From the NCBI RefSeq assembly GCF_000744375.1, contig NZ_JQLU01000005.1:186001-250000 (forward strand): a stretch of DNA of 64,000 bases. Reading direction: 5' to 3'. Of the stretch, positions 5,090 to 15,542 are shown piece by piece (the stretch's first letter is position 1; every line of letters starts with the position of its first letter). Under the pieces are notes generated by a model that made no database searches, had not been told where the DNA came from, and saw only the letters and a list, made by a program, of their open reading frames with translations. The position numbers were made by a program, and so were the translations under genes. Origin of the DNA: Carnobacterium gallinarum DSM 4847 (GTDB lineage: Bacteria > Bacillota > Bacilli > Lactobacillales > Carnobacteriaceae).

Positions 5090-5803
5090 TTAATTTAATT
5101 TTTTTAAACGTGTTAAAACTTCCTCATATACTGGAACTAAATCGCCTAAATCTAAACGATAAATATCTTTATCTAAATGCTCATTTGTTGCTAAATCCCA
5201 TAAACGACATGTATCTGGTGAAATCTCATCTGCTAAAATAATTGTGCCGTCTTGGCGTTTGCCGAATTCAAGTTTGAAGTCCACTAAACGAATTCCAATG
5301 TCTTTAAATAACTGAATCAATGCTAAATTAATCCTGTGAGCCAGTTCTTTAATTTGCTGAACTTCTGATTTTGTTGCAATTTTTAAATAAGCAATATGGT
5401 CTTCATTAATCATAGGATCATCTAATTTATCTTCTTTAAAATAAAATTCTAAGATTGGAAAATCTAGTGCTGTACCTTCTGAAATTCCTAATCGTTTAGA
5501 AAAGCTTCCTGCTGCCACATTACGAATAACAACTTCTAATGGAAACATCTTAACAGCTTCAATCAATTGATCAGTTTCAGAAATTTGTTGAATAAAATGA
5601 CTGTTGATTCCAGCTTGCTTTAAATAACTAAAAATCAAACTAGTAATCTGATTATTTAATTGCCCCTTACCAGCAATAGTATCTTTTTTGACACCATTTA
5701 ATGCTGTTGCTTGATTCAGATAAGTTACCCATAACTTTTCTTCCTCATTTGTTTTAAATAATTTTTTTGCCTTTCCTTCATACAAAAGCTCTTTTTTCTC
5801 CAC
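5090..5803 (-). CDS. purC: SAICAR synthetase
   Basis: PurC ligates aspartate to CAIR using ATP to give SAICAR. The 237-residue product opens with LLYEGKAKKLF, and carries VVIRNVAAGS and VDFKLEFG, hallmark segments of the family; DEISPDTCRLWD is the C-terminal signature. It is the first gene of the minus-strand operon purC-S-Q-L-F-M. Upstream (5887-5961) lie a strong promoter and paired PurR-type boxes, so the operon is probably repressed by PurR and induced by PRPP as in B. subtilis and lactococci (established for those species, inferred here). Confidence 0.97.
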   Translation of the reverse strand: MEKKELLYEGKAKKLFKTNEEEKLWVTYLNQATALNGVKKDTIAGKGQLNNQITSLIFSYLKQAGINSHFIQQISETDQLIEAVKMFPLEVVIRNVAAGSFSKRLGISEGTALDFPILEFYFKEDKLDDPMINEDHIAYLKIATKSEVQQIKELAHRINLALIQLFKDIGIRLVDFKLEFGKRQDGTIILADEISPDTCRLWDLATNEHLDKDIYRLDLGDLVPVYEEVLTRLKKLN

Positions 5804-7978: not shown

Positions 7979-8749
7979 CTATTTGATTATTTTTCGTTCT
8001 TTTGTAAATTTCAATTGAGCAACAATCATGATACTGATAATAATCAACAAATACCAACTTGTAATTTTTCCTAAATGAACCAACCGCCATTTAGCCAGTT
8101 GATCGGGATAGGACCAAGCACCAAAAAAACTGGCAATATTTTCAGCTATCCAGATAAAAAAAGCGATACAGAAAAAAGACACACTCATAGGCATTTTAAA
8201 AGTTTTTTCACCTACTTTGAAATAAACCCAAGTTCGGTAAAATAAAACAAAAACTAAGAACATCAATAACCAACGGAAATCCCAAACATAATGATGGGTA
8301 TAAAAATTAAAATAAATAGCACTACTAAGTAAAACTACCAATTTCTGGTTAGGCCAACGACTCATTTGTAAATCAAAAACTTTCCACGCTTTGCAAATAT
8401 AACTTCCAATACTTGAATACATAAAACCACTATATAATGGAACTCCCCCTAGTTTCCAAAATCCGTCACCTGGATAACTCCATGACCCGATATTCACTTT
8501 ATATATTTCCAAAGCCAAGCCAATAATATGAAATAGCATAATTACTTTTAGTTCATCTATTGTTTCCAATTTAAAAAACAACAATCCTACTTGAATTAAG
8601 ATACAAATTGCTAAAAGTAAATCATAGCGTGCAATACCCGGTACCATTAAGTATTTTGTCAGTGCTAGTGAAAGAAAAATTAGACCTGGAAATAAACAAC
8701 ATAAAACTTGCTGATACGTAAATTGGCTCAACACTTTAATAACTCGCAT
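7979..8749 (-). CDS. DUF817 family integral membrane protein
   Basis: A 256-residue hydrophobic protein with about eight predicted membrane segments. It carries the paired WSYP motifs (GSWSYPGDGF near residue 90 and GAWSYPDQLAKW near residue 220) and the HHYVWDFRW segment that I associate with the DUF817 family. Function is not known for the family; the conserved His, Trp and Asp residues around membrane segments could form a binding or catalytic site (inference). It appears monocistronic, separated from tuf by about 280 bases. Confidence 0.75.
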   Translation of the reverse strand: MRVIKVLSQFTYQQVLCCLFPGLIFLSLALTKYLMVPGIARYDLLLAICILIQVGLLFFKLETIDELKVIMLFHIIGLALEIYKVNIGSWSYPGDGFWKLGGVPLYSGFMYSSIGSYICKAWKVFDLQMSRWPNQKLVVLLSSAIYFNFYTHHYVWDFRWLLMFLVFVLFYRTWVYFKVGEKTFKMPMSVSFFCIAFFIWIAENIASFFGAWSYPDQLAKWRLVHLGKITSWYLLIIISIMIVAQLKFTKERKIIK

Positions 8750-8830
8750 TTACTAAACACTCCTTCTACTAATAAAGTATCTACTTATTTACTAAAGAAA
8801 TTCTTAATAAGATGCAAAGAAATTCATAAA

Positions 8831-8896
8831 AGTCATATTTTTTTCACATTTTTAAATTAATTTAGTCATAAATTCTTCATATTTTACTTGTATACT
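8831..8896 (+). promoter_or_regulatory. Phased 11-bp repeats and -10 of a small-RNA promoter
   Basis: Six consecutive 11-base units run from 8831 to 8896. Four carry a TCATA/TCACA core at the same offset (units at 8831, 8842, 8864 and 8875), and the last ends in a TATACT -10 (8891-8896). No good -35 exists at the right distance. Tandem 11-base repeats replacing a -35 are typical of OmpR/PhoB-family activator sites; 8863-8882 matches about 14 of 20 positions of the E. coli PHO box. The regulator is inferred. Confidence 0.5.
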
Positions 8897-8902
8897 ATAT
8901 TT

Positions 8903-9005
8903 ATACTAAAAATAACAAAACAAAACTTTTTCATTTTCTTTACTCCTCCAAAGTAAAGAACCAACTCCTTTTAGCCACTCATCCTCCAAATGAGTGGCTT
9001 TTTTT
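8903..9005 (+). ncRNA. Candidate trans-acting small RNA with twin anti-Shine-Dalgarno loops
   Basis: No open frame is present, yet the stretch has a promoter-like -10 (8891-8896), two hairpins and a T-run. Hairpin 1 pairs CTTTACT (8938-8944) with AGTAAAG (8952-8958). Hairpin 2 pairs AGCCACTCAT (8973-8982) with ATGAGTGGCT (8990-8999) and is followed by seven Ts: a rho-independent terminator. Both loops are the same seven bases, CCTCCAA, and the linker holds ACTCCTTTT (8964-8972). All three are complementary to GGAGG/AAAGGAGT ribosome sites. This resembles the design of Listeria LhrC and streptococcal csRNAs (established families), but I see no sequence identity to claim homology. The transcript would be about 100 nt. 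Confidence 0.6.
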
Positions 9006-9210
9006 ACTAAAATTAATTTCTTGAACTACGCTAATCAGCAATCCCATAGTGATAAATTATTTATTTTCTCACTTTCTATTTAGATTTCTCCTTCTAATGA
9101 AGGCCTAGCAAATATTTTTTTCTCGAGGTAAATTTATCCAATCGTAGTTTTTTATTGTTTTTATACTATTTAAAGGATAATGAAACATACATGTTTTATT
9201 TTAAAGAAAA

Positions 9211-9256
9211 AAACTATTGCCAAGCTTCCTAATAAAGAAATGCTTAACAATAGTTT
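9211..9256 (-). terminator. Terminator of purE-K-B
   Basis: AAACTATTG (9211-9219) pairs with CAATAGTTT (9248-9256), extended by AAGC/GCTT inside; the minus-strand transcript runs into a T-rich tract. Confidence 0.8.
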
Positions 9257-9262
9257 CTCTTT

Positions 9263-10561
9263 TTATTTGCCTAAACCGACACGATCAAAAATAACATCAA
9301 CATTTTTCAAATGATAGTGATAGTCAAAAGCATCATCTAATTCTGCTGGACTTAAGACTGTCGTAATTTGTGGATCAGCATCTAATAAAGGACGGAAAGC
9401 CACTTGCTCATCCCATGAAATAGCTGTTTTAGGTTGAACTAAATCATAAGCAGCTTCACGGCTCATTCCGTTATCAATTAATTTCAATAATACACGTTGG
9501 CTGTAGATCAAACCAAAAGTCGCATCCATATTACGTAACATGTTTTCTGGGAAAACCGTCAGATTTTTAACAATATTGCTAAAACGATTCAACATATAGT
9601 CCAATAAAATCGTTGCATCTGGCAAAATAATTCGCTCCGCTGACGAATGTGAAATATCTCGTTCATGCCATAAACTAACATTCTCATAGGCCGTTACCAT
9701 ATGTCCACGAATGACACGAGCTAAGCCTGACATATTTTCAGAACCAATAGGATTGCGTTTATGAGGCATTGCTGATGATCCTTTTTGTCCTTTAGCAAAG
9801 AACTCTTCCACTTCGCGAGTTTCTGATTTTTGTAAACCACGAATTTCCGTAGCAAATTTTTCAATACTTGTCGCAATTAACGCAATTGAGCTCATATATT
9901 CTGCATGCAAATCACGAGGCAGAACTTGAGTTGAAATCTCTTGAGGACGAATTCCAAGTTTGTTACAAACAAATTCTTCAACAAAGGGAGGCGTATTTGC
10001 AAAAGTTCCAACAGCTCCACTAATCTTACCAGCTTCAACACCTTTAGCTGCATGATCAAAACGTTCAATATTTCGTTTCATTTCTGAGTACCAAAGAGCT
10101 AATTTTAAGCCAAATGTAGTCGGTTCTGCATGAACACCATGGGTTCTCCCCATCATAACTGTCATTTTATGTTCTTTTGCTTTTGCTCCAACAATTTCTA
10201 AAAAGTTTTGCAAATCTTGACGTAAAAGATCATTGACTTGTTTTAATTGATAACCATAAGCCGTATCCACAATATCCGTACTTGTTAAACCGTAGTGAAC
10301 CCATTTGCGTTCATATCCTAAAGATTCTGAAACGGCACGAGTAAAAGCGACTACATCATGACGGGTTTCTGCTTCAATCTCTAAAATACGGGCTACATCA
10401 AAAGAAGCTCTTTCACGAATCTTTGCCACATCTTCTTTAGGAATTTCTCCAAGTTCTGCCCAAGCTTCCGAAGCTAAAATTTCTACCTCAAGCCAAGTTT
10501 GATAACGGTTTTTATCTGTCCAAATAGCACCCATCTCAGGTCGTGTATAACGTTCAATCAT
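9263..10561 (-). CDS. purB: Adenylosuccinate lyase
   Basis: PurB acts twice in purine synthesis: SAICAR to AICAR + fumarate, and adenylosuccinate to AMP + fumarate. The 432-residue product has the fumarase/aspartase signature [10 protein letters not shown] and the [12 protein letters not shown] catalytic-histidine segment. The start at 10561 gives the canonical [10 protein letters not shown] opening, with AGGAG at ten bases; an in-frame extension to 10600 would overlap purK and lacks a better ribosome site. It is the last gene of purE-K-B and ends at a strong terminator. Confidence 0.97.
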
Positions 10562-10574
10562 TCGTTTTTCGCTC

Positions 10575-11705
10575 CTATTCCCAAATTCCTGTATTTTCAA
10601 TTGTTTCTAATGTTCGTTCAATATTTTCTGTCAAAATAGTAATATGCCCCATTTTGCGTCCTAACTTAGGCATATCTTTGCCATAATAATGAAAATGCCA
10701 ATCTGGTTTCAGTAAAATTTGAAAAACTGATTCTTCAATTTGTTCGCCTAATATATTTACCATAACTGCTTTTGACAGTAGCTTCACTTCTGGTAGTGGC
10801 CAACCACAAATCCCACGAATATGAAGATCAAATTGTGAAAATGAACAAGCTTCAATACTATAATGTCCTGAATTATGAGGACGTGGTGCCAATTCATTTA
10901 CATAAAGAGAACCTGACGATGTTAAAAACATTTCAATTCCTAAAACACCAACTAAGTTCAATTTTTCCGCAATTCTTGTTGCTACAAGCTGAACTTCTTC
11001 CGTAATCTCTTCGTCTATTCGAGCAGGTACAATGGTTTCATGTAAAATATTGTTACGATGTAAATTCTCGGCTACAGGCATGACACTAATCTCGCCAGCT
11101 TCATTCCGAGCAACCATGACAGAACATTCACGTTCAAAAGGAATCCAGGCTTCTAACACACATATACCTGTTTTTAATAAAAGCTCACACTTAGAAATAT
11201 CTTCTTCACCATATAAAACAATTTGACCTTTACCATCATACCCACCACGAATTGTTTTTAACACACAGGGAAATCCAATACTATCAATTGAATCTGCGAT
11301 ATCTTGTAATTCAATAATCGTCGCATAGGGGGCAATATTGATATTGTTCTCTTCTAGATAAGCTTTTTCCAATAGACGATCTTGAGTGATTGAAAGCAAT
11401 TCACTACCTTGTGGCAAATGAACCAGATGCTCAATCTTAGTAATCGCATCCACATCTACATTTTCAAATTCATACGTCACAACATCGCTACGAAGCGCCA
11501 GCTCTCTCAATGCTTCTACATCATTGTATTTTGCCGTAATGTGCCAATCAGCTACTTGAGCAGTCGGGCAATTTCTTTCTGGATCTAAAACGCCAACAAC
11601 ATAGCCCATTTTTTTTGCGGCCAAAGTCATCATGCGACCTAACTGCCCACCACCAATAATACCAATTGTTTTACCAGGGATAATCAAATTAGACAAGTTC
11701 ATCAC
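10575..11705 (-). CDS. purK: N5-carboxyaminoimidazole ribonucleotide synthase (ATPase subunit)
   Basis: PurK carboxylates AIR with bicarbonate and ATP to N5-CAIR, the substrate of PurE. The 376-residue protein begins with the [13 protein letters not shown] dinucleotide-like motif of ATP-grasp PurK, has [15 protein letters not shown] in the ATP-grasp domain and [17 protein letters not shown] near the active site. It overlaps the 3' end of purE by 17 bases and is followed by purB after 13 bases, so the three are co-translated from one message. Either of two adjacent ATG codons (11705, 11702) could serve. Confidence 0.96.
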
Positions 11706-15408: not shown

Positions 15409-15429
15409 AAACTTGTGTCCTTTATTCCT

Positions 15430-15499
15430 CACTTATAGTCCAGTCAATTACGGTGCTGGGTAGAAACTCGTCGACCATCTCTCGACTATTATACAAGTG
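15430..15499 (-). promoter_or_regulatory. Purine (guanine-class) riboswitch aptamer
   Basis: On the minus strand P1 pairs CACTTGTA (15492-15499) with TATAAGTG (15430-15437). P2 pairs GTCGA with TCGAC around a seven-base loop GAGATGG; P3 pairs CCAG with CTGG. The invariant GTTTCTACC and CACCGTAA segments are present. The J3/1 base that selects ligand (position 74 of B. subtilis xpt) is C in GACTATA, so guanine/hypoxanthine rather than adenine is expected. A terminator follows at 15352-15408: ligand binding should lead to termination. Confidence 0.95.
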
Positions 15500-15513
15500 G
15501 TATTATTTTATCT

Positions 15514-15542
15514 AATATAGCGCCAAAACACAGGATTGTCAA
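15514..15542 (-). promoter_or_regulatory. Promoter of xpt-pbuX
   Basis: Minus strand TTGACA (15537-15542) and TATATT (15514-15519), 17-base spacer, just upstream of the riboswitch aptamer. Confidence 0.85.

Follow-up and report, generated by a model that had tools for sequence, protein, structure and literature searches.

The intergenic stretch upstream of purB in Carnobacterium gallinarum DSM 4847 almost certainly encodes, to judge from its sequence, a regulatory RNA of ~100 nt that the genome holds in at least six copies and that probably turns off genes for exported proteins under cell-surface stress. We put at roughly 0.78 the probability that it is a trans-acting small RNA (sRNA) of the LhrC/Ref84 kind, activated by an OmpR-type regulator and blocking the Shine–Dalgarno (SD) site and AUG of exported-protein genes that start with MKK. 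The locus lies in a stretch of 64000 nt (the window; C5:186001–250000) of a 4.04 Mb genome in five contigs. A first-pass annotation, made from the letters alone, had already described an sRNA of LhrC type that is non-coding and acts on the SD sites of several targets, a description borne out by the sequence, by covariation, by homology and by the conserved box. What it overlooked is a conserved single-stranded anti-start segment, AACTTTTTCAT. The present analysis adds three things: LhrC and Ref84 are linked, the activator box is conserved, and the anti-AUGAAAAAG segment shows a bias towards exported proteins.

The conserved ATACCA start places the putative +1 near position 8903, and the plus strand is probably transcribed from there up to an intrinsic terminator (Table 1). 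The window copy carries three CU-rich anti-SD sites (8942–8951, 8964–8972 and 8983–8989); the linker ACTCCTTTT and the T-run were confirmed as first described by sequence, fold and terminator analysis. Read as its reverse complement, the combination CTTTTTCAT...ACTCCTCC gives GGAGGAGT...ATGAAAAAG. The gene has no open frame, as had been noted: within the RNA the plus strand contains no ORF of 50 or more amino acids, and no minus-strand ORF is kept between copies. Elsewhere in the window, a purine riboswitch aptamer at 15416–15516 (minus strand, 68.8 bits) is the sole Rfam match above cut-off.

Table 1. Features of the sRNA locus in window coordinates; half-site means are from 22 Carnobacteriaceae and 34 Vagococcus-type copies
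Feature	Position	Strand	Basis or remark
Neighbouring membrane-protein gene	7979–8749	−	divergent from the sRNA gene
TCATA half-site, −70	8833–8837	+	sequence; 11-nt register with 8844
TCACA half-site, −59	8844–8848	+	ranks third among half-site positions in copies from Carnobacteriaceae
TCATA half-site, −37, core activator box	8866–8870	+	mean match 4.41/5 (Carnobacteriaceae) and 3.74/5 (Vagococcus type)
TCATA half-site, −26, core box overlapping the −35 position	8877–8881	+	mean match 4.95/5 and 4.53/5, respectively
−10 element TATACT	8891–8896	+	sequence; box pattern
sRNA, about 103 nt (putative)	8903–9005	+	model R1 match 8903–9004, 93.9 bits (this copy is itself in the R1 training set); predicted fold z −6.9, none of 200 shuffles equally stable
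A/C-rich single-stranded 5′ leader	8903–8925	+	ATACYAA start kept in aligned copies
Anti-start segment CTTTTTCAT, complement of ATGAAAAAG	8926–8934	+	almost every aligned copy reads CTTTTT[C/T]AT
Hairpin A	8936–8960	+	loop CCTCCAA 8945–8951; anti-SD ACTCCTCC 8942–8949; fold, alignment and stem covariation
Single-stranded linker ACTCCTTTT, second anti-SD motif	8964–8972	+	fold and alignment
Intrinsic terminator	8973–9005	+	hairpin 8973–8999; loop CCTCCAA 8983–8989; T-run 9000–9005
Neighbouring purB	9263–10600	−	convergent with the sRNA gene

The 201-nt DNA of the locus matches five further places in the same genome, giving six copies, and a search with the same DNA found homologues in 30 of 59 relatives. 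In two sister species the intergenic DNA is 74% identical along some 201 nt (E about 1e-25), and the gene order tuf–membrane gene–sRNA–purB is kept. In an alignment of 26 copies (A1), the 5′ ATACCA, the motif AACTTTTT[C/T]AT and loop A (ACTCCTCCAAAG) are invariant or nearly so, the ACTCC linker being less strict. The first-pass annotation had centred on two hairpins with identical CCTCCAA loops and expected both to be conserved in the syntenic region. Both hairpins are present here and the region is conserved, but the terminator loop varies among relatives, and thus the two identical loops are a peculiarity of the window copy rather than a family trait. Hairpin A covaries, with 19 double-changed cells compared with 7.2 in shuffles, a count that leans somewhat towards structure because the alignment used (A3) was assembled by hand from 25-mers; the covariation score was matched by none of 500 shuffles and dropped when the partner columns were slid.

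A covariance-model search of related genomes, which had been proposed as a check, returned the family widely. At E ≤ 0.01, model R1 had matches in 105 of 295 Lactobacillales genomes, including all 18 genomes of the own family; matches also occurred in f8 genomes (a group that includes Vagococcus), with up to 13 copies per genome, in many f2 genomes (a group with Ref84 matches above the Rfam cut-off), and in some f4 and f6 genomes. R1 also confirmed copies in named Vagococcus records, Vagococcus loci having been returned by a loose pattern scan of contigs and upheld by R1. That scan was otherwise set aside, its matches being mostly due to chance and the one in Enterococcus xiangfangensis (L056) being the complement of a real gene start rather than an sRNA. 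No phage copies of the sRNA were found.

The arrangement of the copies varies. In Vagococcus fluvialis, a full-length sRNA sits on small plasmids of 4.5 and 10 kb (L360:4396–4498 and L361:2979–3081), on L361 directly upstream of a helix-turn-helix gene, and an f8 genome (G099; L197:381–1125) has four near-identical tandem copies ~212 nt apart, like the lhrC arrays. Own-genome copies at L235:3474–3615, 5151–5298 and 8604–8752 and at L236:1697–1947 (minus strand) have one more hairpin, placed after hairpin A and before the linker; the L236 copy also has an insert that parts the leader from hairpin A. In the same genome, part of the 120-kb contig C2 is 99.9% identical to a Carnobacterium maltaromaticum plasmid, and positions 1–12000 of contig C1 match conjugative plasmids from Enterococcus, Lactococcus and Vagococcus at 97–98% identity.

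Analysis of the promoter region revealed no sigma-70 −35/−10 pair in 8500–9300, in agreement with the earlier description of a −10 element lacking a −35 and preceded by phased repeats. In place of the −35 there is an 11-bp-phased box whose TCATA/TCACA units share one register, the unit at 8855 being empty. Its half-sites are position-locked at −26/−37 in two families, and the spacing TCAYA-N6-TCAYA-N9-TATANT is kept among copies. Across the 18 family genomes, the pattern (T)CAYA-N6-TCAYA-N9-TATANT occurs at 43 sites, compared with nine for the reversed pattern, and the majority of the 43 head family sRNA copies. The nine box sites of the present genome precede the six sRNA copies, an FtsX-type transporter gene, a VncR/VanR-like response-regulator gene and an RNA-like stretch; across the family genomes, the boxed genes include one for an FtsX-type permease (three species of the genus) and one for a small membrane protein (two species). 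Because the half-sites are locked at −26/−37 and form direct repeats at the −35 position, a response regulator of the OmpR family is the probable activator, and its inducing signal may be envelope stress. A literature search for a CroR or LisR binding motif yielded nothing usable.

We also considered the box-bearing response regulator at C5:2555877 as the activator. Close relatives of it were present in only a few of the 59 genomes, and it was therefore taken as a possible member of the regulon. The VncR/VanR-like response regulator and a kinase (L232:5378–7494, near C5:2555877) have an exact activator box in their promoter and sit downstream of FtsX, ABC and PASTA-domain genes. A small FtsX-type permease gene followed by an ATPase-like gene (L233:2612–3980; the permease gene also in G001 and G002) has a conserved activator box. 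The box at C5:1424781 (minus strand) heads an RNA-like stretch (within C5:1423500–1425500) with ACTACCTCC and a terminator-like end, which is convergent with a Na/phosphate-symporter-like gene, scores 18 bits with R1 and has a fold z of −2.9.

The anti-start segment is the complement of AUGAAAAAG, implying that the natural targets would start Met-Lys-Lys, as lipoproteins and other exported proteins do. Target statistics were drawn from 773 genes called in an 864-kb sample of this one genome (the window plus two 400-kb stretches), with gene calls and protein classes assigned by simple rules. The share of MKK starts was 52% among lipoproteins and 24% among other exported proteins, compared with 5% among polytopic and 3% among cytoplasmic proteins. 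RNAduplex energies to translation starts were stronger for exported proteins (AUC 0.643, p 6e-7), a value reached by none of 100 dinucleotide-shuffled tails in which the anti-SD loop was kept. The same preference was shown by four other RNAs, namely another copy from this genome, one from a sister species, one from Vagococcus and LhrC itself, for each of which none of 24 mononucleotide shuffles reached its own AUC. The anti-start segment plus anti-SD alone gave AUC values of 0.63–0.66, and the loop alone a non-significant 0.53. An in silico target search, which the first-pass annotation had suggested, did predict duplexes running through SD and AUG, for example in the lipoprotein genes C5:572595 and 526776 and the secreted-protein genes 1805001 and 1752965, but 20 of the 40 strongest predicted pairings were with cytoplasmic proteins. 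The preference for exported proteins is thus statistical and moderate, and with half of the best 40 being cytoplasmic we put forward class-wide repression of export only as a hypothesis. Pairing of the A/C leader with signal-peptide codons is not claimed, as in two of the three RNAs examined the preference was hardly affected when the leader was removed or shuffled.

On the mechanism that we propose, an OmpR-family regulator, probably sensing envelope stress, would bind the direct TCAYA repeats at −37/−26 and switch on the window copy and at least five paralogues together. The RNAs would expose up to three anti-SD motifs (loop A, linker and terminator loop), one of which would capture the SD of a target; hairpin A would then open and pairing would continue along the anti-start segment, covering SD, AUG and first codons and thereby blocking translation. 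In the case of LhrC4, lapB mRNA is first contacted by any of three redundant CU-rich sites, whereupon stem A opens and a duplex with the mRNA forms from −21 to +7 (PMC4132741).

An alternative to be taken seriously, although unlikely, is that the RNA blocks SD sites generically, without any preference for exported proteins, CTTTTTCAT being kept for another role such as RNA stability or chaperone binding. Anti-SD motifs alone could indeed pair with most SD sites, and the many cytoplasmic proteins among the best 40 predicted targets would be expected of such an RNA, as would the non-significant AUC of the loop alone. However, in five RNAs, LhrC among them, no shuffled tail attains the AUC of the real one, the anti-start segment plus anti-SD by themselves already give the preference, and start-codon pairing of LhrC4 has been probed (PMC4132741).

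The remaining alternatives concern the box, the strand and the hairpin itself. The first-pass annotation had read the repeats as a PHO-type box, which would make this an sRNA activated by PhoP/PhoB under phosphate limitation. PHO boxes have a direct-repeat form which the 11-bp-phased repeats resemble, but in this genome no phosphate-uptake gene is preceded by any of the nine box sites; the phosphate link is not supported, and we regard such control as improbable. Even less credible is a gene for a small secreted peptide on the minus strand (RBS GGAGG, then ATGAAAAAG...), of which the plus-strand features would be a shadow. Although an SD-like GGAGG lies 10 nt before an ATG on that strand and short MKK-starting frames occur in many copies, the frames (MKK, MKI, MKR and MKKFVRVVLLV, each ended by a stop) shift in length and sequence between close copies, and promoter, box and T-run are all oriented along the plus strand. 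The position of a hairpin between divergent and convergent neighbours might also suggest a mere terminator for purB combined with chance upstream similarity; as the T-run is on the plus side only, with purB on the minus strand, and conservation spans promoter, leader and hairpin A, this has almost no likelihood in our judgement.

The preferred reading, an sRNA of the LhrC/Ref84 kind acting on SD and AUG, raises the question of how closely the three groups are related. The first-pass annotation had called the RNA analogous to LhrC; the LhrC type stands, but analogy is an understatement, as homology to both Ref84 and LhrC is detectable. By Rfam thresholds the window copy belongs to neither family, scoring 36.6 bits with the Ref84 model (RF02846; cut-off 52 bits) and 33.3 bits (E 0.005) with the LhrC model (RF00616; cut-off 110 bits), for which it is the best match in the whole genome. 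One Carnobacteriaceae copy (G008) does exceed the Ref84 cut-off with 62.9 bits, and sub-threshold Ref84 matches coincide with R1 copies, such as the purB-linked copy of G002 (44.8 bits). The raw window DNA matches a Listeria locus (G043:C164; E = 1.4e-4) which the LhrC model calls LhrC, and R1 with filters off found LhrC copies at their exact coordinates with 22–39 bits, the best non-family match scoring 20.6 bits. The Ref84, LhrC and R1 models thus meet at the same coordinates, mostly under Rfam cut-offs. Since the models find each other's members, the window RNA links the two families, and we take all three groups as one superfamily. A literature search for a published LhrC–Ref84 link found none, which is not proof of absence.

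The consequence is that two sRNA families kept apart in Rfam are joined and extended to Carnobacterium and Vagococcus, that the promoter box can be used for finding the regulator of these sRNAs, and that the action of LhrC-type RNAs on surface proteins would have a simple, testable reason, a match to exported-protein gene starts as a class. We suggest more tentatively, and with somewhat more doubt than confidence, that the superfamily is an ancient one of Lactobacillales (including Listeria) acting as a secretome brake. If so, each RNA would be the antisense of a generic exported-protein start (SD plus AUGAAAAAG), and a surface-stress regulator could reduce the cell's overall export load by means of one short RNA class, without individually tuned target sites.

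Compared with Ref84, the window copy has the UACCAA...AACAAC leader (here AUACUAAAAAUAAC), the U-rich segment CUUUUU, hairpin A, the ACUCC linker (ACUCCUUUU) and the terminator in identical order. It differs in its loop, CCUCCAA instead of the CUUAUUGAG-like enterococcal loop, and in its promoter, the enterococcal one having a TAGACA-type −35 without a TCAYA box. Within the f2 (Enterococcaceae-type) genomes, the main Ref84 has an ordinary −35 (L362–L371) and some other copies (L032 and L033) have TCAYA-like sequence at the expected place, suggesting two regulatory branches. Enterococcus faecalis sRNA_109 and E. faecium sRNA_093 have been described as similar to Ref84 (PMC7724050).

LhrC1–5 of Listeria are likewise multicopy, in tandem, the window sRNA having its six copies in one genome. 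Both have an ACAACAA leader, an (A/C)UUUUCAUU segment, hairpin A, a ACUCCCUUUUU linker and a terminator loop, containing CUCCC in LhrC, and both offer three anti-SD sites, in loop A, linker and terminator loop. The motifs are CUCCC/CCCC in LhrC compared with CCUCC here, and the TCAYA-like promoter half-sites of lhrC are at −39/−48/−59 rather than −26/−37. A responsive region from −53 to −75 was reported for lhrC without a consensus, with LisR-responsive positions at −55, −57 to −59 and −72 to −75 (PMC4132741).

The csRNAs of Streptococcus, controlled by CiaRH, are also multicopy, combine anti-SD with anti-AUG pairing and have a direct-repeat box for an OmpR-family regulator (PMC3091779). They differ in that their CiaR box, NTTAAG-N5-TTTAAG, is absent at the window locus (TTTAAG-N5-TTTAAG was not found in 8820–8900) and in that CiaRH is reported in streptococci only; R1 had no match in the sampled f3 genomes, which are presumably streptococcal. 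In physiological terms, the RNAs described here would be a Gram-positive counterpart of the enterobacterial envelope-stress sRNAs, which reduce the synthesis of outer-membrane proteins.
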